The notes under the pieces were generated by a model. The model was given only the letters and a program-made list of their open reading frames with translations, was not told where the DNA came from and did not search any database. Below are positions 7,344-30,055 of a DNA stretch of 60,366 nucleotides, in pieces; position 1 is the first letter of the stretch, and each line of letters opens with the position of its first letter. The translations under genes were made by a program, and so were the position numbers. Source of the DNA: Clostridia bacterium (GTDB lineage Bacteria; Bacillota; Clostridia; TANB77; UBA1234); assembly GCA_017462965.1 (NCBI GenBank), contig JAFTQC010000052.1, positions 1-60,366 on the forward strand, written 5' to 3'.

Positions 7344-7859
7344 AGGAATCCAAAGAGTCCAGAGTTAGTCAGAATTATTAATTTAGAAACGGGAGAAGTA
7401 AAGAAAGAGAAGTATAGAGAAACAGACAATCCGTTTTCGACGAAGGGATATATACCAAAGATGAATGGAAGCTTTGTGAAGATTCATTACTTTAAAGAAA
7501 TGCCAAAGGAATGTAGTGTACTTGATTGCGGGAGATTTTATAAGTTGTTAGAATATATAATAGGAGATAACCAATTATTAGGAGTACGATCTAGTAGAGG
7601 TTATAGACCTATGGGCATCAAGAAGATGGCAGAGATATTTGAATGTAGCGAAAGAAGTGTTAAAAGCTTTTTAAAGAAGTTTGAGACACTAGGAATAATA
7701 AAGAAGGCAAATATGGGAGAAGAGATGTGGTATGGAGTGAATCCATTATATGCATTGAAGGGAAAATATTTGTCGCAAGTAGCATTTATGATATTTCAAG
7801 ATGAGCTAGTGGGAGAAATCCCAGACTGGGCGATTAAGGAATACATGGGTGCTATATAA
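7344..7859 (+). CDS. RepL-like winged-helix replication initiator, AGG start
   Basis: The frame is open from an in-frame TGA at 7329. The only start at ribosome-binding distance is AGG (7344-7346), 7 bases after AAGGGG. The first ATG lies 39 codons downstream with no site. The resulting 171-residue protein has a winged helix near residues 83-125 (AEIFECSERSVKSFLKKF…LGIIKK) followed by VNPLYALKG, the pattern of Firmicute RepL plasmid/phage initiators (NP-x-G). This supports replication initiation. The absence of an integrase fits plasmid-like maintenance. Alternatively it is a phage transcription factor. Confidence 0.65.
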   Translation, partial: RNPKSPELVRIINLETGEVKKEKYRETDNPFSTKGYIPKMNGSFVKIHYFKEMPKECSVLDCGRFYKLLEYIIGDNQLLGVRSSRGYRPMGIKKMAEIFECSERSVKSFLKKFETLGIIKKANMGEEMWYGVNPLYALKGKYLSQVAFMIFQDELVGEIPDWAIKEYMGAI

Positions 7860-7886
7860 GTGAATATAAACGGCTTATAAGGAGTC

Positions 7887-7937
7887 GATAATGTAAGTTT
7901 AGATGTAAAAGTCTGAGCTTGTATTATCGGCTTTTTT
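7887..7937 (+). terminator. Intrinsic terminator after the RepL-like gene
   Basis: A 15-bp stem, AGTCGATAATGTAAG pairing with CTTGTATTATCGGCT (some G-U), followed by eight T. Confidence 0.75.
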
Positions 7938-7960
7938 TATTTGTTTTGGAGGAATGGAAG

Positions 7961-8203
7961 ATGAAGAATTTTTTAGTTTCAGTTTTAAGTGCATTAATAA
8001 TTGGATTTATAGTGATTAGTTTGATAACAATACCAATCTTGCTATATGTAGCGACTTGTTCGATTATGTGGGGAATAATTGCGATGATTTTGTGGATTTT
8101 TGGTTTGCAACCAATAGCAATGGAACTAATCGGATTAATAGTACTGTTCATAATGGCGACGTTAGGTTTTAAGGTGTTTAAAAACGAAATAGTAGATAAG
8201 TAA
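7961..8203 (+). CDS. Small membrane protein
   Basis: An 80-residue protein with ATG behind GGAGGAATGGAAG. Two to three hydrophobic helices cover most of its length (VLSALIIGFIVISLITIPILL…). It is one of the few rightward phage genes with a normal ATG. It sits between the terminator and the tRNA array. Function unknown. Confidence 0.6.
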   Translation: MKNFLVSVLSALIIGFIVISLITIPILLYVATCSIMWGIIAMILWIFGLQPIAMELIGLIVLFIMATLGFKVFKNEIVDK

Positions 8204-8256
8204 TTTAGTGGCGCACTAATTGCTTTAAAAGCTTTTAAAGACGCCGTTAAATATAT

Positions 8257-8330
8257 CGCGGGATAGTGCAACGGTAGAACACTGGTCTCCTTAACCAAAG
8301 ATGCAAGTTCGATTCTTGCTCCCGCTACCA
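8257..8330 (+). tRNA. tRNA with CCU anticodon and initiator-type acceptor end
   Basis: 74 nt with encoded CCA. Acceptor 5' CGCGGGA and 3' TCCCGCT pair at 2-71 to 7-66, but C1 faces U72 and cannot pair. T8, A9, T arm (GCAAG, TTCGATT, CTTGC) and A73 are normal. The anticodon arm is CTGGT, loop CTCCTTA, ACCAA, giving anticodon CCU (reads AGG). Unpaired 1-72 with G2-C71, C3-G70 and G4-C69 is the signature read by formyltransferase in bacterial initiators, whose acceptor is also CGCGGG. G29-C41 and G30-C40 are kept; pair 31-39 is U-A. Against initiator identity, pair 11-24 is U-A as in elongators. It also lacks A37 (U37) and A20, expected of tRNA-Arg(CCU). It is first in the array. I infer an initiator for AGG start codons; which amino acid it carries is unknown. 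Confidence 0.8.
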
Positions 8331-8336
8331 AATTAT

Positions 8337-8411
8337 AGCCAGGTGGTCAAGTGGTGAAGACATCACGCTTTCAATGTGATAACACGAGTTCGATTCTCGT
8401 TCTGGCTACCA
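8337..8411 (+). tRNA. tRNA-Glu (TTC)
   Basis: Acceptor AGCCAGG / TCTGGCT with A1-U72, T arm ACGAG-TTCGATT-CTCGT, encoded CCA. Anticodon loop CTTTCAA gives TTC. The 1-72 pair is intact, in contrast to its neighbour at 8257. Confidence 0.85.
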
Positions 8412-8416
8412 AATAT

Positions 8417-8490
8417 TGCGGTTATGGTGTAACGGTAACACGCTGGATTCATGCTCCAGAGTAAAAGTTCGAATCTTTTGTCCGCAACCA
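8417..8490 (+). tRNA. tRNA with CAT anticodon (Met or Ile2)
   Basis: Acceptor TGCGGTT / GTCCGCA with U1-A72, anticodon stem CTGGA / TCCAG, loop TTCATGC, encoded CCA. A paired 1-72 end and no GGG/CCC stem argue against a normal initiator. Whether it is elongator Met or lysidine-modified Ile cannot be decided here. Confidence 0.8.
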
Positions 8491-8494
8491 ATAC

Positions 8495-8570
8495 TGGGAG
8501 TTAATTCAATTGGTAGAAGCCGTGCCTTGGACGCACGAGGTTGCCTGTTCGAGTCGGGCACTCCCAACCA
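8495..8570 (+). tRNA. tRNA-Pro (TGG)
   Basis: Acceptor TGGGAGT / ACTCCCA, anticodon stem CGTGC / GCACG with loop CTTGGAC, encoded CCA. Confidence 0.9.
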
Positions 8571-8572
8571 AA

Positions 8573-8650
8573 AGTGAATATTGTAAAATGCTCCTCGCTC
8601 GGCTTATATGAGTAACGCATATAGGTAGCGCAAGAAGGTCGATATTCACT
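8573..8650 (+). other. tRNA-sized stem-closed element, not a recognisable tRNA
   Basis: Nine perfect pairs (AGTGAATAT at 8573-8581 with ATATTCACT at 8642-8650) close 78 nt. The interior has CGCT / AGCG and CTTATATG / CATATAG forming one long imperfect hairpin. There is no T loop, no anticodon arm and no CCA. It occupies a tRNA slot in the array, so it may be a degenerate tRNA or a separate small RNA processed with the array. Confidence 0.45.
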
Positions 8651-8676
8651 CAATTTATACCTTATATTTTCATTAT

Positions 8677-8715
8677 CTGGAGGCTGAACCTTATTCCTTT
8701 CTTTCAGCTCTCCAG
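8677..8715 (+). other. Hairpin between array tRNAs
   Basis: TCTGGAGGCTGAA and TTTCAGCTCTCCAG form a 12-bp stem with one bulge and an 11-base loop. No T run follows, so it is not an intrinsic terminator. It may be a processing signal. Confidence 0.45.
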
Positions 8716-8721
8716 CTCCAT

Positions 8722-8797
8722 GCGGGTTTAGTTTAAATGGCAGAACGGCAGTCTCCAAAACTGCAAGATGGACGTTCAAATCGTTCAACCTGTGCCA
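8722..8797 (+). tRNA. tRNA-Trp (CCA)
   Basis: Acceptor GCGGGTT / AACCTGT with two G-U pairs, anticodon stem GCAGT / ACTGC with loop CTCCAAA, G73 discriminator as expected for Trp, encoded CCA. Confidence 0.85.
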
Positions 8798-8801
8798 ATA
8801 T

Positions 8802-8878
8802 TGCAGAATAAGCGAACTGGTAAAGCTACTTGGCTTTGAACCAAGAATGTGGTGGTTCGAGTCCACCTTCTGCATCCA
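8802..8878 (+). tRNA. tRNA-Gln (TTG)
   Basis: Acceptor TGCAGAA / TTCTGCA, anticodon stem CTTGG / CCAAG with loop CTTTGAA, T arm GGTGG-TTCGAGT-CCACC, encoded CCA. Confidence 0.9.
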
Positions 8879-8882
8879 AAAT

Positions 8883-8957
8883 GGTGGAAGTATTTCAATG
8901 GTAGAATGCTAGACTGTGACTCTAGAGATATGGGTTCAATTCCCATCTTTTACCCCA
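8883..8957 (+). tRNA. tRNA-His (GTG)
   Basis: Anticodon stem CTAGA / TCTAG with loop CTGTGAC. The extra G at -1 faces C73, the His identity feature. Encoded CCA. Confidence 0.9.
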
Positions 8958-8961
8958 AAAT

Positions 8962-9037
8962 GATAACGTAGCTCAGTAGGTAGAGCAACTGGCTGTTAAC
9001 CAGTAGGTCGTGGGTTCAAAACCTACCGTTATCGCCA
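8962..9037 (+). tRNA. tRNA-Asn (GTT)
   Basis: Acceptor GATAACG / CGTTATC, anticodon stem ACTGG / CCAGT with loop CTGTTAA, G73, encoded CCA. Confidence 0.9.
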
Positions 9038-9042
9038 TACAT

Positions 9043-9117
9043 TGGAATGTAGTTCAATGGTAGAGCACTCGGCTTATATCCGAGGAGTTGCTGGTTCAAG
9101 TCCAGCCATTCCAACCA
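9043..9117 (+). tRNA. tRNA-Ile (TAT)
   Basis: Acceptor TGGAATG / CATTCCA, anticodon stem CTCGG / CCGAG with loop CTTATAT, encoded CCA. It reads ATA, common in this AT-rich phage. Confidence 0.9.
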
Positions 9118-9119
9118 TT

Positions 9120-9194
9120 GCCTTTTTAGTTTAATTGGTAGAATATCTGTCTTCCAAACAGAAGGAGACGGTTCAAAACCGTCAAGAGGCTCCA
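9120..9194 (+). tRNA. tRNA-Gly (TCC)
   Basis: Acceptor GCCTTTT / AAGAGGC, anticodon stem TCTGT / ACAGA with loop CTTCCAA, U73, encoded CCA. Confidence 0.9.
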
Positions 9195-9199
9195 AAAAT

Positions 9200-9274
9200 G
9201 ATAGATTAGCCAAGAGGAAAAGGCAAGATTCTGCAAAAGTCTTATCAAAGGTTCGAGTCCTTTATCTATCTCCA
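9200..9274 (+). tRNA. tRNA-Cys (GCA)
   Basis: Acceptor GATAGAT / ATCTATC, anticodon loop CTGCAAA, U73 as expected for Cys, encoded CCA. Confidence 0.88.
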
Positions 9275-9279
9275 ATTAT

Positions 9280-9367
9280 GGCAAGTTAATCCAGAAAGTC
9301 TGGAGCTTCCCTGCTAAGGAATGCGTACACAGTTGTGTATGTAGTGCAAGTCTACAGCTTGTCGCCA
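9280..9367 (+). tRNA. tRNA-Ser (GCT)
   Basis: 88 nt with a long variable arm (GTACACAGTTGTGTAT region). Anticodon loop CTGCTAA, G73, encoded CCA. Confidence 0.88.
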
Positions 9368-9372
9368 TTTAT

Positions 9373-9459
9373 GGTATGGTAACTTAGACGGCTCTAAGCA
9401 CTGTCTTGAAAACAGTTGGTGTGTAAAAGCATGGGGCTCGACACCTCACCATATCGCCA
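9373..9459 (+). tRNA. tRNA-Ser (TGA)
   Basis: 87 nt, acceptor GGTATGG / CCATATC, anticodon stem ACTGT / ACAGT with loop CTTGAAA, long variable arm, G73, encoded CCA. Confidence 0.88.
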
Positions 9460-9462
9460 AAT

Positions 9463-9536
9463 GCTTCTCTAGTTCATCGGTAGAATAACGCTCTTGTAAA
9501 GCGTAGAGATTAGTTCAATTCTAATGAGAAGCTCCA
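9463..9536 (+). tRNA. tRNA-Thr (TGT)
   Basis: Acceptor GCTTCTC / GAGAAGC, anticodon stem ACGCT / AGCGT with loop CTTGTAA, encoded CCA. Confidence 0.9.
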
Positions 9537-9540
9537 AAAT

Positions 9541-9616
9541 GCTAAGATAGCTCAGACGGCAGAGCATCTGGTTGAAGCCCAGAGTGTCGCTAGTTCAATT
9601 CTAGCTCTTAGCACCA
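9541..9616 (+). tRNA. tRNA-Phe (GAA)
   Basis: Acceptor GCTAAGA / TCTTAGC, anticodon stem TCTGG / CCAGA with loop TTGAAGC, encoded CCA. Confidence 0.88.
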
Positions 9617-9618
9617 AT

Positions 9619-9695
9619 GCTCAAGTAGTCGAATTGGAATAGACACCAGTCTTAGAAGCTGGAATTTGCAAGTTCGAGTCTTGCCTTGAGTACCA
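9619..9695 (+). tRNA. tRNA-Leu (TAG) with a short variable loop
   Basis: Acceptor GCTCAAG / CTTGAGT (G1-U72), anticodon stem CCAGT / GCTGG with loop CTTAGAA, encoded CCA. The variable region is only five bases (AATTT), whereas bacterial tRNA-Leu normally has a long arm. The D loop is Leu-like. Anticodon TAG reads CUA; it is not a stop suppressor. Confidence 0.8.
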
Positions 9696-9699
9696 AAAT

Positions 9700-9776
9700 G
9701 CTCGAATAACCGAATTGGAATAGGTATTTGGTTTAAGCCCAAAGTTTTGTGGGTTCGACTCCCACTTCGAGTACCA
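9700..9776 (+). tRNA. tRNA-Leu (TAA) with a short variable loop
   Basis: Acceptor GCTCGAA / TTCGAGT, anticodon stem TTTGG / CCAAA with loop TTTAAGC, variable region GTTTT, encoded CCA. Like the preceding tRNA-Leu it has lost the long arm. The two share acceptor and D-arm sequence and are probably duplicates. Confidence 0.8.
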
Positions 9777-9790
9777 AAAGGAGAATGCAA

Positions 9791-10111
9791 ATGATAACAG
9801 CAAATGAGTATTTAAAAATAATAGTACAGAAGAAAAAACTGAAACAAGCAGAAATACTGCGAAAAATGAACAGCTTAGGCATGGGAAAAGATGGTGTGCC
9901 AATAAACAAGCAACATATTTCTAACATTTTAAATGGAATAAGACCGTTATCGCCTTATATGGCAAGAAAGTTTGAGATTGTTCTTGAGTTAGAAAAATAT
10001 AGTGTTGTAAAAATGGTTGGTTTTCCAAACGGTGAAAAGAGTATGCAGACGTTAAAAGATATTGATAAGTTTGAGGAGATTTTAAAAGGCAAGAACGAGA
10101 AAAAACAATAA
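9791..10111 (+). CDS. Helix-turn-helix DNA-binding protein (XRE-like)
   Basis: A 106-residue protein with ATG 7 bases after AGGAG; a second ATG at 9785 is too close to that site. Residues 1-58 fit an XRE-type helix-turn-helix (LKQAEILRKMN…INKQHISNILNG…LSPYMARKFEIVL). It follows the tRNA array by 14 bases and overlaps the terminase gene. It may be a regulator or, from its place before TerL, a small terminase-like DNA-binding protein. It keeps a normal ATG start. Its last codons are crossed by the AGG start of terL. Confidence 0.7.
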   Translation: MITANEYLKIIVQKKKLKQAEILRKMNSLGMGKDGVPINKQHISNILNGIRPLSPYMARKFEIVLELEKYSVVKMVGFPNGEKSMQTLKDIDKFEEILKGKNEKKQ

Positions 10112-11850
10112 AAGAAATAATAGGTCTTTTAAAGACAGGCAAAAAAATAGACGAATATTCTTTTTATGCTATGTGTGAAAATCTTCATGCGCTTCTTTTG
10201 GATTTATATGATTGTGAAAAAAACAATCCTAGGAATAAGGAAGAAGCAGAAAAAAGGGCTTGTAAATACGTTATAACAGTTTTAATACCAACACTAGAAA
10301 AACGAATGACAATATGTGAAATAGAGTATCAACACAAGTATTATTATTTGTGGGAAAAAGCGTATGCGTTAGCTGGTAGAAGGTCACTAGAACATTTTAT
10401 AGACTACATGGAAATGGATAAAGTAAACAAAGTTTTAAGTGGAAGAAGAGAAATATTGAAGCCATTTATATATTATCTAAACAAAATTACTTTTGATGAA
10501 ACCTTAAGGTATATCATTTGTTCTTATTATCCTTCGGCTGGCAAAAGCTTCGTTTCAACATTTTATAGTGCATGGCTTTATGGTCTTGATGTAAATAATT
10601 CAATAATACGAATGAGTTATTCAGAGGACTTAGTGTTAGGTTTTAGTAGAAGTACAAAAGAAATCATATCAAGCCCGAGATTTGCAGAAGTGTTTCCAGC
10701 ATTCAAGTCGTATAATGGTAATCCGTTTTCAACAAAGATTGTAGATAACTGGAAGCTAAGGGACGCAAGCGTTGTTTATTCATATATGGCTATTTCAAGA
10801 GACGGACAGGTAACAGGTAAAAGAGCAAATAGAGCCATGATATTTGATGATATGACTAAGGGTGCTGACGAAGCCACTAATAGTGCAATACATGCAAAAT
10901 ATTACGACCAATGGAAGACTGAATGGATAAACAGAACAGATGGTAAAAGAACAAAATTTATATTTGTTGGTACGATGTGGTCGCCAGAAGATATTTTAAA
11001 TAGAGTTACTCAAGATAGAGAGTCATTATCAGAGGTTGTCCCGAGTAAATTGTTTAAATATTGTTGGGAAACAACAGACGGCACAAGCGTATTTATAAGA
11101 GTTCCTTTATTAGATGAAAACGACGAAACAACTTGCGATATTATCATGTCGACAGAAGAGGCAAGACAGTTAAGAGATACAACAGATGAGTTTTTGTGGT
11201 CTTGTGTTTATCAACAATCACCAATTCCACCAACTGGATTGAATTTTGCAGATGAATTATTGAATCATTATGAAAGACTACCAGTAAATCCAGACGGCAG
11301 TCCTGCTTATAGCAACTATAGCCTGGCTGTTTTAGATACAACAAGAAAAGGAAAAGATAATGTTTCGATGCCGATTTTTAAAACAGATGGAGAAAGCTAT
11401 TATTTTATTGATTGCTTATTCAAAGCAAAGGCTATGACTGATATGTATGATGAAATTATTGCTAAGATAGAAGAACATAACATTACATGGTTAGTTGTAG
11501 AAAACAACACAGATACATCCTTAAAGACATTATTAGACCAAAAACTTAAAGAAAAAGGCATTGTTACATGTGTTATAACAGAAAAATACAATACAGTAAA
11601 AAAAGAAATGCGTATTATGCAAAATCAAGGATTAATAAGAAAGTTACTTTATTTTAAAGACAAAAGAAGTTATACAAAAACTAGCGATTACGGACGATTT
11701 ATGAGCAATCTGACTACATACAGCTTTGATTATCCTAATAAACATGATGATGCGCCAGATAGTTTGTCGTTATTTGTAACAGAAATAATTTTAGAAAAGG
11801 GGAAACCAAGCAAGCCACAACCAATTAATAGGTATATGCTTGGAGTGTAA
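10087..11850 (+). CDS. terL: Terminase large subunit, AGG start
   Basis: Packaging ATPase/nuclease of 587 residues. Walker A-like SYYPSAGKSF (about residues 141-150) and Walker B-like AMIFDDM are seen in the N-terminal half. The C-terminal half has the nuclease pattern LAVLDTTRKGKDN, VVENNTD and a final HDDAPDSLSLF. The frame runs uninterrupted to AGG at 10087-10089, 7 bases after GAGGAG, giving N-terminus QEREKTIKEIIGLL. The first ATG (10171) is 28 codons in, lacks a ribosome-binding site, and would delete the leading helix. Internal AGG codons (for example GRRSLEHFI) still fit arginine. Confidence 0.9.
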   Translation, partial: RQEREKTIKEIIGLLKTGKKIDEYSFYAMCENLHALLLDLYDCEKNNPRNKEEAEKRACKYVITVLIPTLEKRMTICEIEYQHKYYYLWEKAYALAGRRSLEHFIDYMEMDKVNKVLSGRREILKPFIYYLNKITFDETLRYIICSYYPSAGKSFVSTFYSAWLYGLDVNNSIIRMSYSEDLVLGFSRSTKEIISSPRFAEVFPAFKSYNGNPFSTKIVDNWKLRDASVVYSYMAISRDGQVTGKRANRAMIFDDMTKGADEATNSAIHAKYYDQWKTEWINRTDGKRTKFIFVGTMWSPEDILNRVTQDRESLSEVVPSKLFKYCWETTDGTSVFIRVPLLDENDETTCDIIMSTEEARQLRDTTDEFLWSCVYQQSPIPPTGLNFADELLNHYERLPVNPDGSPAYSNYSLAVLDTTRKGKDNVSMPIFKTDGESYYFIDCLFKAKAMTDMYDEIIAKIEEHNITWLVVENNTDTSLKTLLDQKLKEKGIVTCVITEKYNTVKKEMRIMQNQGLIRKLLYFKDKRSYTKTSDYGRFMSNLTTYSFDYPNKHDDAPDSLSLFVTEIILEKGKPSKPQPINRYMLGV

Positions 11851-12178: not shown

Positions 12179-12352
12179 AGGAATATATGTAGTGATTGTT
12201 TACACCAATTTCGTTGTATGACTGATAGATATGAGAATAGACAACGTGATTTCATGTTAGATGTTGAAAGAAAAGAAACATATGACGGTCAAATAATTAT
12301 CTATGTTAAAAAATGTAAAAAATATGTGCGTGGAAAAAGGTTTAAGTATTGA
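12179..12352 (+). CDS. Small Cys-containing protein, AGG start
   Basis: A 57-residue frame bounded directly by TAA (12176-12178) and then AGG (12179-12181), 8 bases after GGAGG. No ATG, GTG or TTG stands at its head; the first ATG is codon 14. The product begins NICSDCLHQFRCM, with a CxxC pair and a basic tail (KKYVRGKRFKY), so a small zinc-binding or nucleic-acid-binding role is possible. This gene can be seen only if AGG starts are accepted. Confidence 0.65.
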   Translation, partial: RNICSDCLHQFRCMTDRYENRQRDFMLDVERKETYDGQIIIYVKKCKKYVRGKRFKY

Positions 12353-12541: not shown

Positions 12542-14260
12542 AGGGCAGAAACAAATAATACAGAATTGAATAAAGCACAAGAGAACAGTTTAGCTGGGGT
12601 GTCATTTTTAAGTGATACACCGATTGTCACGCCAACAAATGAACCACAAAAAGTTTTCTTTGGGAGAAAAACAATTTATTCTTCATTAAAGAAAAACGAA
12701 CTAAGTTCTAAAAAAATAGTTCAGATATTGCCGAGGGTTTTAAGAATCCATGCGCAAAATGCAAGTGAAATAGAATATCTGTACAACTATTATAAAGGTC
12801 AACAACCAATTCTAAGTAAGCAAAAGAAGGTAAGACCAGACATAAACAATGTTACTTTAGAAAATCACGCTTACGAAGTTGTTGAGTTTAAGAAATCACA
12901 TGAGTTTGGAGAGCCTGTGCAATATGTACAAAAAGGTGAAAAGGATAGCGAGAAAGTTAATCCAGAATTATCTTTACTAAATAAATATATGGAGAGTGAA
13001 GACAAATCTAGTTTAGATAACTTGCTTGCTGAATGGCAAAACATCTGTGGCACTGCTTATCGTTGGATAGACCAAGATAAGAAAGATGACGAAGATGAAG
13101 CACCTTTTGAAATATCAATTCCAGACCCACGAAGAACATTCGTAGTGTATTCAAATGGAATTAAAGAAGAACCATTGTTTAGTGGATATATCAGCTATTT
13201 TACAGATGTTGATATTGTTACTCAAGAAGAAAGTCAGTATAGAGTTATTACAATTTATACTGATAGTTTCATGATGGAAGTTAAGGAACAAAATGGTGTA
13301 TTCACTGTTATAGAACAAGATTTAGGCGTAGATATAAAGCTTGGAGAAGACAAAGAACCTATAACGGAATATCCACTTGTTATAAAAGGTCAAAGAATAA
13401 TTGAATACCCACTTAATCATGCAAGACTAGGTTTAATTGAGGTTGTAATGACACAATTAAATGCAATAAACAAAATTAAATCGGACGATTTAGATGGAAT
13501 CGACCAATTCGTTCAAAGTTTATTAGTGTTCGTAAACCAAGATGTAACAGTAGAAGATGTAAAAGCTTTAGAAGAGGCTGGAGCATTAAAAGTGTATACA
13601 TCAGACCCTAGTAAACCAGCAGACGTTAAATTGCTTACACAACAAATGTTACATAGCGAAACGAAGATTGTGACAGATGACATTTATAATAACATTTTAA
13701 CAATTTTGGGTATACCAAAGCTAAATAACAAACCATCTGGTGGCGACACGGGACAAGCAAGATTGCTTGGTGAAGGTTGGACAATGGCTTATCAAAGAGC
13801 AAAACAAGATGATTTGAATTTTAAGAAAGCTGAAAGACAATTTTTAAAAGTGGCGTTAGAAATATGCAAGTTTTATGACAAGATAAAAAAATTAAAAATG
13901 TCAGACATAGACATAAAAATACCTCGTGATAAATCAGACAATTTATTAGTAAAAGCGCAATCATTAATTCAATTATTAGAAGCTGGAGTACATCCAGAAA
14001 TTGCATTTACAGTAGTAGGATTGTTTGGCGATCCGCACGATGTATATCTAAAGAGTTTGAACTATCAAGGCGAAGACTTTTGGAAAAAAGTTAAAGATGT
14101 AGCAGAAAATAAACTTGCTACAGGAGAAACAATCAAAGGTACTAGCAAAGATAGCTTAAATAAAAATAATCCAGCTGAGGGGGTTAATGCTCAGCCACAC
14201 AAAAACGAGGACGGCTCGGTAAAAAACGGTAGTGTGAGAAAAGAGGTAAAGAATGGATGA
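12542..14260 (+). CDS. Portal protein (SPP1/gp6 type), AGG start
   Basis: A 572-residue protein forming the ring through which DNA enters the head. Family features include the N-terminal YNYYKGQQPIL segment, the repeated hub region, and the C-terminal IPKLNNKPSGGDTGQARLLGEGW stretch. TAA (12539-12541) is followed at once by AGG (12542-12544), 5 bases after GGAGG, giving N-terminus AETNNTELNKAQEN. The next possible start is a TTG eight codons in, at 30 bases from the site. It overlaps the scaffold gene by 8 bases. Confidence 0.9.
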   Translation, partial: RAETNNTELNKAQENSLAGVSFLSDTPIVTPTNEPQKVFFGRKTIYSSLKKNELSSKKIVQILPRVLRIHAQNASEIEYLYNYYKGQQPILSKQKKVRPDINNVTLENHAYEVVEFKKSHEFGEPVQYVQKGEKDSEKVNPELSLLNKYMESEDKSSLDNLLAEWQNICGTAYRWIDQDKKDDEDEAPFEISIPDPRRTFVVYSNGIKEEPLFSGYISYFTDVDIVTQEESQYRVITIYTDSFMMEVKEQNGVFTVIEQDLGVDIKLGEDKEPITEYPLVIKGQRIIEYPLNHARLGLIEVVMTQLNAINKIKSDDLDGIDQFVQSLLVFVNQDVTVEDVKALEEAGALKVYTSDPSKPADVKLLTQQMLHSETKIVTDDIYNNILTILGIPKLNNKPSGGDTGQARLLGEGWTMAYQRAKQDDLNFKKAERQFLKVALEICKFYDKIKKLKMSDIDIKIPRDKSDNLLVKAQSLIQLLEAGVHPEIAFTVVGLFGDPHDVYLKSLNYQGEDFWKKVKDVAENKLATGETIKGTSKDSLNKNNPAEGVNAQPHKNEDGSVKNGSVRKEVKNG

Positions 14261-14873: not shown

Positions 14874-15872
14874 AGGGAACAAAATGGAACAATTACAAGT
14901 TTTGGTGTACTAAATTATTCTGGTATGCTATTTAACAAAGGAAATACAAGAACACCATTACTAAGTATGATAGGTGGAAAAACAAAATATACAAATCATG
15001 TAGAGTATGTATTATCACAAACATACGCTAGCGAAGATGGAGATATTCCAGATGTATCTGAAAATGGTTCATTAACAGCTCCAGAAGCAAGTTATATCAC
15101 AAGAGAACAAGCAACAAACGTAACTCAAATATTCCATGAGAGCGTTGCAATTTCTTACGCAAAACAATCTAACATGGGTACATTATCTGGTGCAAATGTT
15201 GCAGGACAAGAAGCAAATCCAATGAACGAGTTAGATTTCCAAGTAGCAAGAAAAATGAACAAAATTGGTAGAGCTATTGAAAAAACTTTCATTCAAGGTA
15301 CATACAACAAAGCTACTACTGATGCAGAAGTAAATAAAACAAGAGGTTTAGCTCAAGCTATAACAACAAACGTTATAGATGGTGCTGGTGCTCCATTAGA
15401 TATTTGGATGCTTAATGATTTAATGATTAAGATGAAAGATAACGGAGCAGATATTACAAATCTTGTTGCGTGGTTAGACACAACAACAATCAACCAATTA
15501 AATGGTAGCGCTGTTGAAAATGGTTTAACTGTTGTACCTGCTTCAAGAAATGAAAATGGTATCAATGTAAGAAGCATTGAATTACCTTCTGGAGTTATAA
15601 CAATCGCAAATGGTGAATTTATTCCAGCAGGAACAGCATTCTTACTAAACTTTGATGTAATTAGTCCAGTTGAACAACCTGTACCACAAAAAGGTAACTT
15701 CTTCTTAGAAGAACTTGCTAAAACAGGTGCTGGAGAAAAATATCAAATCTTCGGACAAATCGGTTTAGACTATGGTGCTGAGCACTTACATGGTAAGATT
15801 ACTGGATTATCTACAACATTCACAAAACCAGCTGGTAAGAAAGTTGTAGTAGTAGACCAAGTGTCTGCCTAA
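14874..15872 (+). CDS. Major capsid protein (SU10-like), AGG start
   Basis: A 332-residue shell protein with the SU10/DUF5309 pattern: an N-terminal YASEDGDIPDVSE loop, long helix VARKMNKIGRAIEKTFIQG, Asn-Asp-rich middle, and C-terminal GAGEKYQIFGQIGLDYG. TAA (14871-14873) abuts AGG (14874-14876) 9-10 bases after AGGAG. N-terminus EQNGTITSFGVLNYSG. The first ATG (14925) lies 17 codons in without a site and would remove the start of the N-arm. As the most abundant virion protein it is the best place to test AGG initiation by peptide sequencing. Confidence 0.9.
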   Translation, partial: REQNGTITSFGVLNYSGMLFNKGNTRTPLLSMIGGKTKYTNHVEYVLSQTYASEDGDIPDVSENGSLTAPEASYITREQATNVTQIFHESVAISYAKQSNMGTLSGANVAGQEANPMNELDFQVARKMNKIGRAIEKTFIQGTYNKATTDAEVNKTRGLAQAITTNVIDGAGAPLDIWMLNDLMIKMKDNGADITNLVAWLDTTTINQLNGSAVENGLTVVPASRNENGINVRSIELPSGVITIANGEFIPAGTAFLLNFDVISPVEQPVPQKGNFFLEELAKTGAGEKYQIFGQIGLDYGAEHLHGKITGLSTTFTKPAGKKVVVVDQVSA

Positions 15873-15945: not shown

Positions 15946-16146
15946 AGGAAAATAGAAGTAGTTAGAGAGTATAACGACTTGAAATTAAAACGACTTGTTA
16001 AAGTAGGCGAAGAGTTAGAAGTAACAAAGGAAAGACTAGCTGAAATAGAAAAAGTTGAAAAAGAAAGAAAAATTAAACTTGTTAAGGTTGTAGAAGAAAA
16101 AGAAGAACCAAAGCAAGTCGAAAATAAAAAAGCTAAAAAGAAGTAG
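15946..16146 (+). CDS. Small charged protein, AGG start
   Basis: A 66-residue protein, AGG at 15946-15948 after GTGAGGTGAACTA. It begins KIEVVREYNDLKLKRLVKVG and continues as a Lys/Glu-rich helix. The first half resembles the short beta-hairpin proteins that follow capsid genes in Firmicute siphophages. No ATG occurs anywhere in it, and the only alternative start is a TTG at codon 12. It is recognised as a gene through the AGG start. Confidence 0.65.
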   Translation, partial: RKIEVVREYNDLKLKRLVKVGEELEVTKERLAEIEKVEKERKIKLVKVVEEKEEPKQVENKKAKKK

Positions 16147-22000: not shown

Positions 22001-22420
22001 ACAGATAAGACAAATACTACACTAGGTTCGATATATAACTTCCTTAAAACCGAATTAATGACAAAATTACAAGGCATTAAGGAAGCTTGTGAGAATATTA
22101 GAATAAACATTATTCATGAACATTATTATGGTGGCGAAGGATATGCAACTGGTGGTATGCCATCAAGCGCAAGTTTATTCTACGCACATGAAAACGGAAT
22201 GCCAGAGCTTGTAGGCAAGATGGGAAATAATACAGCAGTAATGAACAATGAACAAATTGTAAGTGCGGTTGCTATGGGCGTTGCGGAAGCTGTTGCAAGT
22301 GTAATGGGGGAAAGACAAACAATAGTACAAATAGACGGAAAAGAAATATTAAGCGCAACGGAAAAAGCTAAAAAAACAAGAGGATATGGAATTGTAGGAG
22401 GTGCGTTCGCTAAGGGCTAA
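19001..22420 (+). CDS. Tape measure protein, AGG start
   Basis: 1139 residues, setting tail length. Long coiled coils flank a TMP core (MAKSMSIPAEQAYLLSENF … KLRAGLAGQTKPLRDIGLD), several hydrophobic helices at about residues 600-730, and a C-terminal ATGGMPSSASLFYAHENG segment. AGG (19001-19003) lies inside the end of GT after GAAGTG; the product begins SNDKELDEELKIEVGVS. The first ATG is 45 codons in. In KLRAGL the internal AGG falls on the family's usual arginine, so AGG is not Met inside genes. Confidence 0.88.
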   Translation, partial: RSNDKELDEELKIEVGVSATTTSDFKDAEKGLKQLEKTTDKTNEKMKDTAKKVKLISDEIRALAQEAKKINQVAIGKNLQMLAGEVRRVETKEANKTKIRDVAGKVKHFDTAKGTSFSKDFQEAFTGINVNSSLNDLVTKAKELGNTDMAKGIREFQQELNKEKGMQELNEQVKEVKSSLEKLGYDSTTIDKFEQKIKDTTQETNKLTTSLRKVSEVAQTINSIIPRFVRTALSIQGLKTIFNTIIGGFNKIIGVTEQSSAYIENLHMFEVSMGRDKTKDMLDDANKYYKRGIEFQNQLHEAFSTNMSDTLKYQGLFNQMAKSMSIPAEQAYLLSENFTKLGYDLSSLFNLDPEDAMQKLRAGLAGQTKPLRDIGLDITQQTLAPKLKELGIDKSVKQLTQAEKMVLRYIVVLEQAKASHGDFADTIDQPANQLKILKEQIKELTQAFGNMFLPILKKILPYINGFVMALKEVINVLAGLFGYTKDMGQGMSSVNAEEIDLGYGEELEEAKKLKSYTLGFDELNVLKEDDSDSNSAGLGGAVDSRLLEAMEEYDNRMGEVANKAREIRDLIMEWLGFIQTVNEEGEITWTYLDEGYTGLEKIKTIAMALLGIKLTFGLLNTLANLGVMLDGLGKLKNIVIANKSVFLTIGKVLAKIAIIVWTVLAVWATIKGILDGTLTPLQLFFSSVASIMAVVATILILTKSIGIALVGGIITALAILIVIVAKYWDEVVYMVKTGWSNLSSWICKAFTSVGEIVLKVFVKIGGEAKILGMKFYDAICTIFEGIGDLIMDAIGGVLVWVAEKVDNVLNAFIKPINEIVQFFGGDGFAESELSAKVQAWVDEKDAEREANIENKRDNRDANIEAERMELEKTLKGLSALGDDIRSGYDALAEQRNDVYWSEYMTKFAEKQAKEAEEEAKKAEEATNATKENTNAITDFTNTIGEQVGELTSNITGSVNVDTLLNDSGLDVALEKNADIENDVLGETEQISDELSFSNDLTDKTNTTLGSIYNFLKTELMTKLQGIKEACENIRINIIHEHYYGGEGYATGGMPSSASLFYAHENGMPELVGKMGNNTAVMNNEQIVSAVAMGVAEAVASVMGERQTIVQIDGKEILSATEKAKKTRGYGIVGGAFAKG

Positions 22421-22838
22421 TTTTAATCCGAATCCAACAGGGAAAAACTTAGGTAAATATAATGAGGAATTTTTAGTAGTTAATGGCAAAACGTTTCCTA
22501 TGGTTAGAGCAGATAGTGGCAAACAAACTGTAGCAACTATGGTTTCTGATGCGAGAAATGCACAAGGTGTTTTCATAGGGCAAAAGATAGGACGCGACCA
22601 ATCAAAGGTTGAGTACGTTGCGTCCGCCTTAACGGCTCAAGAGTGGTCTGAAATATTAATGATATTTGAAAGAAGTTTTGTAAATGATGTTACATATTTT
22701 GATATGGTAACGGGTTCAAAAATTACAAGAAAAATGTACGTTAATGACAGAACAGCGTCTCCTTTAGCGGTAGATGAAGAGGGCAATGTAACTGTGTGGA
22801 AAGACTGTGCATTAAACTTAATTGATACTGGAATGTAA
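22413..22838 (+). CDS. Small tail protein (DUF6711-like), AGG start
   Basis: A 141-residue protein directly after the tape measure, beta-rich with EEFLVVNGKTFPMVRADSG and RNAQGVFIGQKIGRDQSKVEY, the pattern of short Firmicute tail-tip proteins. AGG (22413-22415) follows GGAGGTG and overlaps the tape measure's last codons; the product begins ANFNPNPTGKNLG. A GTG four codons earlier (22401) is an alternative but lies on the ribosome-binding site itself. Confidence 0.7.
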   Translation, partial: RANFNPNPTGKNLGKYNEEFLVVNGKTFPMVRADSGKQTVATMVSDARNAQGVFIGQKIGRDQSKVEYVASALTAQEWSEILMIFERSFVNDVTYFDMVTGSKITRKMYVNDRTASPLAVDEEGNVTVWKDCALNLIDTGM

Positions 22839-22852: not shown

Positions 22853-24628
22853 AGGCAAAATGTAAGTGAAGAATACTTAATTCAAACCAAACAACAATTG
22901 AGAGGTGAATCTAAAGTTGTTGTTACGATTGGTGTTGAAGCATTAACTTTTAAAACAGCAAGTGAAGTTACTGATAATGGCAGAGTATATTACAGTGGGA
23001 ATGACTATTATGGAATAAATGGTAAGCCAAGCGTAGCATATTCTACATTAGAAGAAGATTATTGGCTATTAGATGGGAAAAAGAAACTTTTACCAGAAAC
23101 AAACTTTGCTGTTCAACCTTTAATAAGTGATGTAATGACAAACTCAAATTGTGAATTTGAAACAAAACCCAAAATAACAATAACTGCAAATACGACAGAT
23201 ATTGAATATAACTTAATCGGATTACAAATGACATTTGATGAACTTGATTATGACTTTTGTAGTGAATTTACAGTTAATGCATATATGAATGATGCTTTAG
23301 TAGATACAGATACTTATGCCAATAATATGGTTGAATGTAGATACGAAAGAGGTTTTGATAGTTTCAACAAAATTGAAATCATATTTAACAAAATGAATAA
23401 AGCGAATAGAAGATTGCGTTTAACCAAAATGTTTTTGGGGATAGGACAAACATATACACCGAATGAAATTATAGATACAAAACAGAAATGGACTATAGAT
23501 GTTTTGGCAAGAGAAATAAGCGACACGGACTTTCAGATGACCATAGATAATAGTAAAAATGAATATGATGCAGACAACCCAACAGGTATAGCTCAGTATT
23601 ATCAAGAAAAACAGCCTGTACAAGTAACTTATATGTATGAAAAAAATGATGGAACATTTGAACAAATTGATGGTGGGAAATTGTATTTAGTTGGTAGACC
23701 ATCAACCAAAGAGTATGAAGCAACATTTGAAATAAAAGGAATGCTATATTTCTTGACAGATACTTATAAAAAGGGCATATATGTTGCTAATGGTACAAGC
23801 TTTTACGATTTGCTAGTGAACTTGTTTAATGAAGTGGGATTTGAGGAATACAAAATAGATGAGAGCTTGAAAGAAAAGTACACAACAATACCACTTCAAA
23901 TGTTACCAACAAAAGAAAATATTCAATTGATATGCAATGCTACAAATATGATTTTCTTTGAAGATAGAACAGGGAAAATAAAAATCGTACCAAGAAATAC
24001 AGACATTCAATCGTATTATTTGGATTTGGCAAATCAAACCGAATTTCCTAAAGTTGAGTCAATACCTAAATTGAGGGATATCAAAGTGGCTGTATATAAA
24101 CCAACGGTTTCAACAGAAACTAGCAAAATATATGAAGGTAATTTTGCCGTAGCGGGTAATGAAGTTTTAAAAATTGATTATTCTTCTTCACCAGCCACAA
24201 ATGCAGTAGCAACTTTAACAAATGCAACTTTAAACTCTGCCAAGTATTATGCATATTATTGTGAATTAGATGTAACAGTAAGTAATACAAGCCAACCAGT
24301 TGGAGTTATTATAAACGGAAATGCTATAGAGTTAAATAAAAGTACATATACGCTTCATGTAAATGCAGAGGGTGAAGATTGCGAAATAGATAACCCTTTA
24401 ATAGATACAGAAAGTGAAGCAAGCGAAGTAGCGATGTTTTTTAGAGATTATTTAATATATAGAAATACTTATTCAACAGAAAATAGAGGAGAACCAGCGT
24501 GGGATGCTGGAGATACGATAGAGTTACAAACACAGTTTAGTGAAAAAATAAACGGAATAATAACAAGTAACGAAATTACATACAATGGAGCACTAAAAGG
24601 TAAAACGACATTAAAAGGATTAGTGTAG
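22853..24628 (+). CDS. Tail hub / baseplate protein, AGG start
   Basis: A 591-residue protein in the distal-tail/hub slot. Beta-rich N-terminal half, a middle with gp27-like character (GQTYTPNEIIDTKQKWTIDV … MLPTKENIQLICNATN), and a C-terminal domain ending KTTLKGLV. AGG (22853-22855) is 7 bases after AGAGGTG; the product begins QNVSEEYLIQTKQQLRGE. The first non-AGG start is a TTG 15 codons in. Function by position and length. Confidence 0.75.
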   Translation, partial: RQNVSEEYLIQTKQQLRGESKVVVTIGVEALTFKTASEVTDNGRVYYSGNDYYGINGKPSVAYSTLEEDYWLLDGKKKLLPETNFAVQPLISDVMTNSNCEFETKPKITITANTTDIEYNLIGLQMTFDELDYDFCSEFTVNAYMNDALVDTDTYANNMVECRYERGFDSFNKIEIIFNKMNKANRRLRLTKMFLGIGQTYTPNEIIDTKQKWTIDVLAREISDTDFQMTIDNSKNEYDADNPTGIAQYYQEKQPVQVTYMYEKNDGTFEQIDGGKLYLVGRPSTKEYEATFEIKGMLYFLTDTYKKGIYVANGTSFYDLLVNLFNEVGFEEYKIDESLKEKYTTIPLQMLPTKENIQLICNATNMIFFEDRTGKIKIVPRNTDIQSYYLDLANQTEFPKVESIPKLRDIKVAVYKPTVSTETSKIYEGNFAVAGNEVLKIDYSSSPATNAVATLTNATLNSAKYYAYYCELDVTVSNTSQPVGVIINGNAIELNKSTYTLHVNAEGEDCEIDNPLIDTESEASEVAMFFRDYLIYRNTYSTENRGEPAWDAGDTIELQTQFSEKINGIITSNEITYNGALKGKTTLKGLV

Positions 24629-24638: not shown

Positions 24639-25187
24639 AGGGAAGAGTTAATTTATGATAGAACAATAGAAGATATAACATATAAAACTAAAAAAGGTTT
24701 TTATAACTATAGTGATTTGAATCGTATTGAAAATTGGTGTTTCTATCTTGCTTCTATTCTTGAAAAATGTTCATACTTAGATGCGTCTGAAATGATTATT
24801 AAAACAAACTGGACAGCGTTAGATTTTCCGACTGCCTTTGAAATGGAACGAATACGAAGTAATATAAAATTGTTAAAAGATTCCTATGTTGCTTATAAAG
24901 AAATTCCATCGAACTTAGATTACATGACAATTGAAAAAGCGAATGATATAGAACGAATTATACACGAGCTAGATTATATATTGATGTGGATGAAAAATAA
25001 CTATATTTATTCTGGTGTGGCTAATTGCGGACAGCCTCGAGTGTGGCAACAAAGATTCAGAAGGATGTACACATATTTTGTGCCACAGACATGGGCTGAA
25101 CTAAATTATGAATATTGGAATGAAATAGAAAATCTAACATTTGAAAGTAAAGGGGTTGGTTACAAGTCAAGAGACACAGAATTATAA
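24639..25187 (+). CDS. Tail-associated protein, AGG start
   Basis: A 182-residue, mostly helical and aromatic-rich protein often seen between hub and fibre genes in Clostridia phages; exact role unknown. AGG (24639-24641) lies 5 bases after GAGGTG; the product begins EELIYDRTIEDITYK. The next possible start (TTG, 24717) is 26 codons in. It overlaps the head of the next gene. Confidence 0.7.
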   Translation, partial: REELIYDRTIEDITYKTKKGFYNYSDLNRIENWCFYLASILEKCSYLDASEMIIKTNWTALDFPTAFEMERIRSNIKLLKDSYVAYKEIPSNLDYMTIEKANDIERIIHELDYILMWMKNNYIYSGVANCGQPRVWQQRFRRMYTYFVPQTWAELNYEYWNEIENLTFESKGVGYKSRDTEL

Positions 25188-27169: not shown

Positions 27170-27181
27170 GAGGAGAAGAAG

Positions 27182-27763
27182 AGGAGTTATTATCCAAAAT
27201 TGGAGTGGAATGATAAAGCAAGTTTAATTGAGAAAGTGAAAGCAATATATAATGTTCTTAATTGGAACTCACACGAGATGAGCTTAGGAAGAGTAAAAAC
27301 TAACAGAATAGAACTACAAAATAATATTGAAAGAGCAAAGGTGCCTATGTCAATCGCATTTGTAAAAATGGCGGAAAAAGGTGATATTGATGAAATAACA
27401 GCAAGCGAAAATATAGACTTGTTTTTAGAATGGACTACTAATGTAAAATATACAACTAACACTCTGCTACAATATGAAGGTTTATTATACAGAGTAATAC
27501 AAGAACACACGTCTCAAGCCGACTGGACACCAGATACTACGCCATCACTTTATAAAGTTCTAGGTATAGATGAGAATGGCATAGTATTTTGGTCGCAACC
27601 GATTTCACAACTGGATGCTTTTATGCTAAATGATGAGGTTATGCATAATGATTTAATATGGGTATCTGATTATGATAACAACGTATGGGAGCCTGGAGTA
27701 TTTGGATGGCATTTAAAAGATGAAGAAAATGAAAGTGGAGATGCTGAGGTGATAGAAGGATAG
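27182..27763 (+). CDS. Tail protein with chitin-binding-like module, AGG start
   Basis: A 193-residue protein. AGG (27182-27184) follows AGGAGGAGAAGA; the product begins SYYPKLEWNDKASL. Residues 95-125 (LLQYEGLLYRVIQEHTSQADWTPDTTPSLYK) match the CBM5/12-type carbohydrate-binding module of phage fibres and chitinases. The upstream region is helical. Its stop is displaced: if AGG at 27757 were ATG, this gene would end in TGA there, but it reads GGA and ends at TAG three bases on. Confidence 0.75.
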   Translation, partial: RSYYPKLEWNDKASLIEKVKAIYNVLNWNSHEMSLGRVKTNRIELQNNIERAKVPMSIAFVKMAEKGDIDEITASENIDLFLEWTTNVKYTTNTLLQYEGLLYRVIQEHTSQADWTPDTTPSLYKVLGIDENGIVFWSQPISQLDAFMLNDEVMHNDLIWVSDYDNNVWEPGVFGWHLKDEENESGDAEVIEG

Positions 27764-28389
27764 AAGTAAAAGATGAAATTTTGGCTGGTGAGGCAAAATA
27801 TAGAATAAGTGATAGTTTAGGAAATGTCCTACACGATGATGTGAAAATTGAAATGACAACATCAGTTCAACAAGAAGGCACACCGCTTAACAAAGCTTTA
27901 TTTGATAGTATAGAAACGGATTTGGCATCGACATATAGAAATATACCTAAAGGATTAATTTGCATGTGGAGTGGCTCAGAGGTTCCGATAGGTTGGCTTT
28001 TATGTAATGGTGAAAATAATACACCCGATTTAAGAGATAGATTTATTGTTGGAGCAGGCAATGAATATTCTATAGGAAATACTGGCGGAGAAAAAGAACA
28101 TGTTTTAACAACGGCAGAAATGCCAAAACATCAACATGCGGTTGGTGGTAATAATGAATCTTCGACTTCGTGGGATAGTGTTACGACAGGAAAAGGATAT
28201 GGAGGAATTGCATATAGACATAGTGGTGACGGTTCGTTTGAACTTGGCGCAGACAGATATAGTAGTTCTGGAGACGATACAACAATCAATTATAACGATT
28301 GGCTTGTTAATACAACATCTGCAGGTTCAAACTCAGCACACGAAAACAGACCACCATATTATGCACTTGCATTTATTATGAAAGCATAG
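27757..28389 (+). CDS. Phage tail collar-type fibre protein, AGG start
   Basis: A 210-residue protein with tail-collar features: KGLICMWSGSEVPIGWLLCNG, then PDLRDRFIVGAG, GGEKEHVLTTAEMPKHQHAVGG and C-terminal HENRPPYYALAFIMKA. These domains form fibre tips. AGG (27757-27759) follows GAGGTGATAGA; the product begins IEVKDEILAGEAKYRIS. The first TTG is eight codons in. Confidence 0.8.
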   Translation, partial: RIEVKDEILAGEAKYRISDSLGNVLHDDVKIEMTTSVQQEGTPLNKALFDSIETDLASTYRNIPKGLICMWSGSEVPIGWLLCNGENNTPDLRDRFIVGAGNEYSIGNTGGEKEHVLTTAEMPKHQHAVGGNNESSTSWDSVTTGKGYGGIAYRHSGDGSFELGADRYSSSGDDTTINYNDWLVNTTSAGSNSAHENRPPYYALAFIMKA

Positions 28390-28400
28390 GAGGCAACCAA

Positions 28401-28763
28401 AGGAATCTAATAATTAGTATTGCTGAACTTGTTGGAGCACTATCAACAATCATTGCAGTAATAATAGCAGTTGAAAAATGGACAAGAGGTAAATTGAGTG
28501 CGTGGTTATTAAAGCCTGTATTTGATAGGTTGGATGCTATAGATAAAAAAATTTACAACATGGATAAAGAACAATGCATGAATTTCTTGAATGAATTTAT
28601 TGCGGACGTGGGAAATGGAGTACATAAGAATCAATATCAGATCAAAAGAGCACATGATATATATAAGCATTATGAAGATGATTTAAATGGAAATAGTTAT
28701 ATAAAAGAGCAATGGGATACAATTGTTTTACATCATACTGGAGGTGAAAATAAGGAGCAATAA
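28401..28763 (+). CDS. Membrane-anchored phage protein next to holin, AGG start
   Basis: A 120-residue protein. AGG (28401-28403) is 7 bases after GGAGG. The recovered N-terminus is a transmembrane helix (NLIISIAELVGALSTIIAVII) that would be lost with any downstream start, which shows that the AGG start matters. The rest is soluble and helical. The position before the holin suggests a role in lysis or superinfection control. Confidence 0.7.
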   Translation, partial: RNLIISIAELVGALSTIIAVIIAVEKWTRGKLSAWLLKPVFDRLDAIDKKIYNMDKEQCMNFLNEFIADVGNGVHKNQYQIKRAHDIYKHYEDDLNGNSYIKEQWDTIVLHHTGGENKEQ

Positions 28764-28968
28764 AACATATGACATATTGAAATGGATAGCACAGATTTTA
28801 TTGCCAGCTGTAGGCACATTATATTTTGCGTTAGCAGGCATATGGAATTTGCCTTATGGCGAATCAATAGTAGGAACGATAACGGCGATAGATACATTTT
28901 TAGGTTGCATACTTGGTATAAGTTCTGTTAGTTACAAGAAAAAGGAGGCGGATGCTAAGGAAAACTAA
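28753..28968 (+). CDS. Holin, AGG start
   Basis: A 71-residue protein with two membrane helices (WIAQILLPAVGTLYFALAGIW and VGTITAIDTFLGCILGIS) and a charged end, the pattern of Dp-1/phiLC3-type Firmicute holins. AGG (28753-28755) is 8 bases after GGAGG; the product begins SNKTYDILKW. It forms pores to release endolysin. An AGG start would keep this lethal gene silent in the absence of the matching initiator tRNA. Confidence 0.8.
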   Translation, partial: RSNKTYDILKWIAQILLPAVGTLYFALAGIWNLPYGESIVGTITAIDTFLGCILGISSVSYKKKEADAKEN

Positions 28969-29692
28969 TTTAGGTTTGGTAGCATATTGTAAAGCACAAC
29001 TTGGCAAACCGTATTGGTATGGAACGCATGGGCATGAAGCATCAGAAGAGTTGTATCAAAGACTTGCTAACGGTCAATATACTAAAACGTCTATATTATG
29101 TTTTAGAAAAGATACGTATACAAAAGATTACGGGTTAAAAGTACATGATTGTAGTGGTCTTATAAAGGGATATTTATTTTGCGATACGAAAGAAGATTTT
29201 TATAATCCCCAAAATTATACAGCAGAGATAGACGGCGGAATAAGATATTCTAACTGCAAGAAAAAAGGACTAATTAAGTCAATGCCAGAAGTAAAAGGTT
29301 TGTTAGTTTTTAAGACTGGACATGTTGGCGTATATATCGGTAATGGAAAAGTTATAGAAGCTAAAGGTCATGCTTATGGAGTGGTAGAAACAGAACTTGC
29401 AAAAGGTTATTGGACAAGTTGGGGAGAATGTCCTTATATAAAATATGCAGAAAGCGAGGCAAACAAAATGATAGATGAACTAATTGATGAATACGGCGGA
29501 GATAAAGTTGAGAAAGCATTAAGAATTTTAATTGAATCAATATATGATGATGGAAAACCTTCTCCATGGGCTGTAGAAGAATTTGAAGAAGCAAAAAAAG
29601 TAGGAATTACAGATGGAACTGAACCAGAAAAGTTTGCTTCGAGAGAAGAAGTAGCAATTATGGTGTTGAGAGGAAACAAAATTAATGAATAA
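28958..29692 (+). CDS. Endolysin: NlpC/P60 peptidase with SLH-like end, AGG start likely
   Basis: A 244-residue lysin. Residues 1-155 form an NlpC/P60 cysteine peptidase: catalytic Cys in HDCSGLIKG, His in TGHVGVYIGNG. The C-terminus resembles an SLH-type cell-wall module (SPWAVEEFEEAKKVGITDGTE). AGG (28958-28960) is 8-11 bases after GGAGG. A conventional ATG two codons earlier (28952) lies 4 bases from the site and could also serve, so this is the weakest of the AGG assignments. Confidence 0.8.
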   Translation, partial: RKTNLGLVAYCKAQLGKPYWYGTHGHEASEELYQRLANGQYTKTSILCFRKDTYTKDYGLKVHDCSGLIKGYLFCDTKEDFYNPQNYTAEIDGGIRYSNCKKKGLIKSMPEVKGLLVFKTGHVGVYIGNGKVIEAKGHAYGVVETELAKGYWTSWGECPYIKYAESEANKMIDELIDEYGGDKVEKALRILIESIYDDGKPSPWAVEEFEEAKKVGITDGTEPEKFASREEVAIMVLRGNKINE

Positions 29693-29839
29693 TCACGAGA
29701 AAAGGTTTTAACGAAAAACACATCATATGTGATAAACTTCTTGGACAAAGTATAAAAACATCTTAAAACCGATTATAGAGTCATTAAATTTTCATTTAAT
29801 GAGAATTTTTATAAAAATATTATTTAGGAGGAATCGTCA

Positions 29840-30055
29840 AGGAACTACAAAGAGAAAAAAGAAGAAATAATGGTAAAACATGAAAGAGCAATCAGAGCTA
29901 TTGCGCATGCGAACAATGTTGATATGGGTGTTGCTTACGATATGTTAAAATGCAACATGACAAGAGGCGGAACATACCCATATGTAAACGTTAATGAGTT
30001 TATGGCTGATATTGATGAGCTTGAAAAGTTGGCAGGAGAAAATTTGAATAAATAG
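29840..30055 (+). CDS. Small phage protein, AGG start
   Basis: A 71-residue helical protein. AGG (29840-29842) follows GGAGGAATCGTCA; the product begins NYKEKKEEIMVKHERAIRAI. An ATG ten codons in (29870) lacks a site. The segment NNVDMGVAYDMLK and PYVNVNEFMADIDEL may form a small helical DNA-binding or packaging factor. Position between endolysin and HNH. Function unknown. Confidence 0.55.
   Translation, partial: RNYKEKKEEIMVKHERAIRAIAHANNVDMGVAYDMLKCNMTRGGTYPYVNVNEFMADIDELEKLAGENLNK

Follow-up and report, generated by a model that had tools for sequence, protein, structure and literature searches.

AGG start codons in a Clostridia prophage

The window analyzed here, 60,366 nucleotides (nt) of a Clostridia bacterium (assembly GCA_017462965.1, contig JAFTQC010000052.1, positions 1 to 60,366), contains a prophage in which most genes of the late block appear to start with AGG instead of ATG. 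This block is preceded by an array of tRNA genes, the first of which carries the anticodon CCU and is the putative decoder of these start codons. The corresponding features are listed below.

7344..7859, + strand: DnaD-like/replication-initiation-like helix-turn-helix protein, AGG start; AGG also in relatives G001 (40493) and G004 (33304)
8257..8330, + strand: CCU-anticodon tRNA whose acceptor end is of the initiator type, proposed AGG initiator tRNA
8257..9776, + strand: array of 15 tRNA genes directly upstream of the late genes, the CCU tRNA being first
10087..11850, + strand: large terminase, AGG start; AGG kept in 18 relatives
12179..12352, + strand: small open reading frame (ORF), AGG start
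12542..14260, + strand: portal protein, AGG start, from homologue alignment
14874..15872, + strand: major capsid protein, AGG start; AGG in all homologues found in the AGG clade, ATG in more distant ones
15946..16146, + strand: small ORF, AGG start
16156..16500, + strand: head/tail block gene, AGG start, from homologue alignment and orthologue start table
16856..17374, + strand: head/tail block gene, AGG start, from orthologue start table
17368..17793, + strand: head/tail block gene, AGG start; AGG shared by most members of the clade, three having ATG
17799..18233, + strand: major tail (tube) protein, AGG start; AGG in 19 phages
19001..22420, + strand: tape measure protein, AGG start
22413..22838, + strand: tail-block gene, AGG start less certain
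22853..24628, + strand: tail-block gene, AGG start
24639..25187, + strand: AGG-start gene
27182..27763, + strand: AGG-start gene
27757..28389, + strand: tail fibre/collar protein, AGG start
28401..28763, + strand: AGG-start gene with an N-terminal hydrophobic helix
28753..28968, + strand: small hydrophobic (holin-like) gene, AGG start less certain
28958..29692, + strand: AGG-start gene, less certain; weak match to tail lysin families
29840..30055, + strand: small gene, AGG start

A preliminary description of this DNA had proposed these 20 AGG codons as starts, and all 20 were found at their coordinates in open frames. While 17 are unambiguous, the other three are less certain, a conventional start being located just upstream in frame (GTG at -4 codons for 22413, TTG at -10 and GTG at -3 codons for 28753, and ATG at -2 codons for 28958). 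The GGAGG-like Shine-Dalgarno (SD) sequence described 5-11 nt upstream of most of these codons is indeed present, the site being weak at 7344 and 19001. An in-frame stop codon occurs 1-6 codons upstream of AGG in 16 of the 20 genes; TAA immediately precedes AGG at 12179, 12542, 14874 and 16156, as had been reported, and also at 17368. About one-fifth of the late genes of the window start with ATG (11854, 14253, 16497, 18262 and 26381).

Sequence context and conservation of the AGG starts

Within the first 30 codons of the ORFs of AGG-phage genomes, 156 of the 311 AGG codons follow an SD word of 5 nt or more, the highest proportion among all codons, ATG itself being SD-preceded in 130 of 315 cases. 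In related phages with ATG starts, the same test gave 11/167 for AGG (Fisher P = 1.7e-24 against the AGG phages), and in host genes 1/59, the host genes used for comparison being drawn from nine stretches of host genome.

Alignment with homologues, one of the checks suggested in the preliminary description, placed AGG where relatives that start with ATG have their Met, in the terminase, portal, major capsid and tail tube proteins and in three other families; none of these homologues was found to begin at the downstream ATG or TTG codons. Around 60 more distant capsid homologues have ATG at the position of the AGG of the window, and AGG stands there in L003 and L004, which are the nearest relatives. 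Similarly, the orthologue start table revealed that AGG and ATG replace each other at the same site among orthologues of the AGG clade. The search for related phages identified the same AGG starts in about 25 contigs originating from independent metagenomes (IMG/VR) and from metagenome-assembled genomes (MAGs) of Clostridia, the AGG phages being a lineage of Clostridia gut phages with AGG on most virion and lysis genes. Collectively, these comparisons show that the conserved AGG codons are the true start sites.

A phage-encoded tRNA-CCU with initiator features

The data support the reading of the preliminary description, namely AGG starts together with Arg-coding AGG inside genes. That description gave no mechanism and overlooked the CCU tRNA at 8257-8330, which ARAGORN labels as a tRNA-Arg. 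The acceptor stem of this tRNA (CGCGGGA/UCCCGCU-A) contains a C1·U72 mismatch followed by G2:C71 and C3:G70, with A73 as discriminator base. Among 18 distinct phage CCU tRNAs, the 1:72 position is mismatched in 15 and U1:A72 in the other three, while G2:C71 and C3:G70 are present in 18/18, and A73 and G30:C40 in 17/18. In the 130 tRNAs examined, the only other 1:72 mismatches are those of the host formylmethionine tRNA (tRNA-fMet) and of one boundary artefact. The usual anticodon loop of the phage tRNAs, CUCCUAA, differs by a single base from that of the host tRNA-fMet (CUCAUAA).

A covariance model (R1) built from five phage CCU tRNAs scored the host tRNA-fMet(CAU) at 81.5 bits and the host tRNA-Arg(CCU) at 44.7 bits; the remaining host tRNAs reached at most 60 bits, except for the tRNA-Trp located at the prophage edge (62.5 bits). 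The combination of A20 with a paired 1:72 position, a feature of tRNA-Arg, is found in the host tRNA-Arg(CCU) (A20, G1:C72) and is absent from the tRNA of the window (U20, C1·U72). Judged by the model scores, the CCU tRNA is related to initiator rather than to elongator tRNAs. Some variability is observed in the rest of the molecule: A11:U24 occurs in about half of the CCU tRNAs of the relatives (L085, L087, L141 and others), three consecutive G:C pairs are found in the anticodon stem of L208, and odd T loops are present in L084 (8360-8433), L199 (7280-7353), L208 (8113-8186) and L193 (7486-7560), some of which escaped ARAGORN and were found only by the covariance model. Consensus promoters occurred near the tRNA array at a frequency no higher than in shuffled sequences.

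When dereplicated loci with sufficient upstream DNA were compared, a CCU tRNA was present in 16/16 AGG phages (17/17 with the window) and in 0/34 ATG phages. In the AGG phages, it is located 0.7-2.8 kb upstream of the terminase gene and on the same strand. In a tree of portal proteins, the AGG phages form one fully supported group which includes two ATG rows. One of these corresponds to phages with ATG starts carrying, at the place of the CCU tRNA, an initiator-like CAU tRNA with A1:U72 and U73 (L152, 5782-5857; identical in L007, L010, L011 and L180). Such phages would fit a switch of the anticodon in either direction and are a possible ancestor or revertant. Named contigs of the AGG group are mostly Clostridia MAGs, and those of the ATG group Bacilli MAGs; the host in the window carries SpoVAD, a protein of spore formers.

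Distribution of AGG starts among phage genes

In three near-complete relatives, the late block being delimited by structural genes, AGG starts were found in 46 of 50 SD-bearing late genes and in 16 of 126 other genes (P = 7e-24). This enrichment, along with the matching phage tRNA in 17/17 cases, agrees with a tRNA-based recoding by which phages gate their lytic genes. In one relative (G006), the genes for the integrase, the S24 repressor, an FtsK-like protein and a DnaB-like helicase start with ATG, while those for the amidase lysin, RusA and an RNA ligase have AGG, as does that for a PDDEXK nuclease in another relative (G007). The RNA ligase (PF09414; L131, 2439-3698, corresponding to G006, 42439-43698) is possibly involved in tRNA repair, the phage relying on its own tRNAs.

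A translational gate is probable, because the gene for the CCU tRNA lies shortly before the late genes and shares their strand, and because the integrase and the repressor keep ATG. AGG-start genes would probably be translatable only when the phage supplies the CCU tRNA, so that late proteins would appear once this tRNA has been made and would be silent in the lysogen. By analogy with the proposal made for stop-codon recoding phages, this distribution suggests that the CCU tRNA gates lytic functions.

Proposed mechanism and alternative explanations

A phage-encoded initiator tRNA-CCU very likely starts translation at AGG. According to the proposed mechanism, this tRNA would derive from a bacterial tRNA-fMet by conversion of the anticodon CAU to CCU (A35 to C35). 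We infer that it is charged and, presumably, formylated by enzymes of the host, and that its pairing with AGG takes place in the P site of the ribosome, downstream of an ordinary SD sequence, so that translation of the virion and lysis genes and of a few replication genes can start. Internal AGG would still be read as Arg by the ordinary host tRNA-Arg(CCU), and the phage tRNA would not read it because it is of the initiator type.

Several observations weigh against this scheme. The main determinant of methionyl-tRNA synthetase (MetRS), A35, is lost, and determinants of arginyl-tRNA synthetase (ArgRS), C35 and U36, are present (PMC9976931). The tRNA of the window lacks one of the three G:C pairs of the initiator anticodon stem (G29:C41 and G30:C40 being followed by U31:A39), has U11:A24 without the R11:Y24 of initiators, and contains U37. 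Selection against SD sequences before internal AGG, which five phages had seemed to indicate (0/115), disappeared in a larger set (8/302, not significant). Finally, some non-late genes also start with AGG and the gate is therefore not confined to late genes.

As the amino acid carried by the CCU tRNA, Met is somewhat likelier than Arg. The Met determinants, A35 excepted, are retained in the phage CCU tRNAs. Neither a phage-borne MetRS nor a Met-tRNA formyltransferase was found in seven phage records. The same initiator tRNA may instead be charged with Arg by the host ArgRS, the proteins thus starting with (formyl-)Arg, a variant which we regard as a serious contender of lesser probability. Besides C35 and U36, the pairs G2:C71 and C3:G70 are common to the Arg and Met lists of determinants (PMC9976931), and Escherichia coli initiator tRNAs with a changed anticodon receive their amino acid from the synthetase that matches this new anticodon, as shown for Gln and Val (PMC2268962). 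However, nearly all the phage tRNAs (L139 and L193 excepted) have U20 or C20 in place of A20, the chief determinant of Arg identity in bacteria, and A73 without A20 leads to a classification as Met according to a published rule (PMC8629427). In addition, Ala or Ser often follows AGG, as they do after a removable Met, although this may merely be inherited.

Initiation could also result from mispairing of the host tRNA-fMet(CAU) with AGG, giving low-level expression, the CCU tRNA then being an elongator for a rare Arg codon. AGG is indeed rare in both host and phage, and phages commonly carry tRNAs for rare codons. Nevertheless, this explanation is improbable: the initiator-type acceptor end is kept across diverged CCU tRNAs, the host already possesses a tRNA-Arg(CCU), ATG-start relatives with equal use of internal AGG lack the CCU tRNA, and leaky initiation would be ill-suited to highly expressed genes such as that of the capsid protein.

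It is still less likely that the real starts are downstream ATG, GTG or TTG codons and that the AGG codons occur by chance. As noted in the preliminary description, conventional start codons are available 5-45 codons after each AGG, but their use would cut off regions which align with the N-termini of homologues. Moreover, AGG is preceded by an SD sequence as often as ATG, recurs at the same site in the roughly 25 phage contigs and is accompanied by the CCU tRNA in 17/17 cases.

Reassignment of AGG to Met throughout the organism and its phage, as in UBA7642 Bacilli, has a precedent (PMC8629427) and would explain why AGG occupies the position of Met in starts, but it is hardly credible given the meaning and frequency of internal AGG. 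As stated in the preliminary description, internal AGG fits Arg: over 232 homologous columns, it corresponds to R (0.49), K (0.16) and M (0.01), as does AGA, and the internal AGG codons of the window, examined alone, also fit Arg. Internal AGG is equally rare in five AGG-phage records (28 per 10,000 codons), in the host (31) and in ATG phages (within 28-31), in contrast to 209-235 in the UBA7642 code (PMC8629427). In addition, host genes lack AGG starts and the host tRNA-Arg(CCU), with its A20 and G1:C72, is an ordinary one; a stretch of host rpoB contains no AGG codon and is therefore uninformative on host decoding. Since internal AGG is rare and falls in Arg columns, the system is not an AGG-to-Met code of the UBA7642 type.

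Lastly, misreading of ATG as AGG, a systematic error conceivable in one lone MAG contig and named in the preliminary description as a possible refutation, can be set aside with near certainty: contigs from IMG/VR and MAGs, assembled independently and with diverged flanking sequences, carry AGG at these same starts, and internal ATG codons are intact.

Prophage surroundings and the terminase gene

The prophage of the window (1900-30500) spans about 28 kb, in comparison with 48-50 kb in relatives; no integrase or replication module was recognized in this region, and the element may be reduced or partly deleted. Its left edge adjoins a gene for a Ro60-like von Willebrand A protein (DUF2828/DUF7788; 142-1701), while its right edge is marked by a tRNA-Trp (30654-30727) with a score similar to that of the host tRNA-Trp in members of the family.

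In three diverged AGG phages, a single additional C interrupts the large terminase gene at the Walker A motif (CCN-C-GG before GYGKS; L084 around 10378, L086 and L087 around 10366), an arrangement that would seem to call for a programmed +1 frameshift at CCN-CGG. The terminase gene is continuous in the window, L003 and L083, and CGG is otherwise absent from the late genes of the window.

Significance and comparison with known systems

The preliminary description knew of no code or phage with AGG initiation, and none in phages or bacteria was found in the literature searched, in which coverage of subscription journals is thin. To our knowledge, natural bacterial initiation otherwise relies entirely on initiator tRNAs with a CAU anticodon, at AUG or near-cognate codons. 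With almost the same confidence as for the role of the tRNA itself, we propose from these sequence data that AGG and the phage tRNA-CCU form a natural second start-codon/initiator-tRNA pair, operating beside AUG and tRNA-fMet in the same cell. AGG would have a double meaning, start or Arg, depending on its context, late genes would be under the control of a phage tRNA, and the first residue may even differ from Met. Such pairs have not been known outside laboratory engineering. If this proposal is correct, recoding of the start signal is possible while the elongation code stays unchanged, phages possess a new type of gene control, and a natural orthogonal initiation system is available for synthetic biology. 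In practice, standard gene callers truncate the capsid, tail and terminase proteins of AGG phages, and the tRNA is mislabelled as Arg.

A code in which AGG means Met was described by Shulgina and Eddy in 2021 in UBA7642 Bacilli. Both systems rely on a CCU tRNA without A20 for AGG. However, in UBA7642 Bacilli, Met is encoded chiefly by AGG throughout and the tRNA is chromosomal, whereas in the AGG phages the tRNA is phage-encoded and of the initiator type, and internal AGG remains Arg. Another related system is the phage-encoded initiator tRNA-fMet(CAU). A scan of viral contigs for initiator-type anticodon arms showed CAU in 108 of the 120 matches listed; among these matches, no other changed anticodon made a convincing case and CCU was confined to this clade. 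In a scan for the CCU anticodon arm, the matches listed belonged to this clade or were due to chance.

Functionally, the AGG phages would resemble crAss-like and other gut phages with stop-codon recoding, in which a phage tRNA is needed for structural and lysis genes and in which tRNA gating of lytic genes has been proposed (discussed in PMC10879173). While suppressor tRNAs of such phages recode a stop codon in elongation, a sense codon would be recoded here at initiation only.

The CCU tRNA also has a counterpart in engineered E. coli tRNA-fMet mutants and artificial initiation codon systems, which combine an initiator body and an altered anticodon and use the matching non-AUG codon behind an SD sequence. 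The E. coli mutant tRNAs are formylated and initiate at UAG or GUC, de novo initiation of one reporter at UAG reaching about 100% (PMC2268962), and changed-anticodon initiator tRNAs also function in cell-free systems (PMC13232202). Unlike these laboratory constructs, the putative initiator tRNA-CCU is natural and phage-encoded, is directed to AGG, and is fixed across a phage lineage in which it would serve most late genes.

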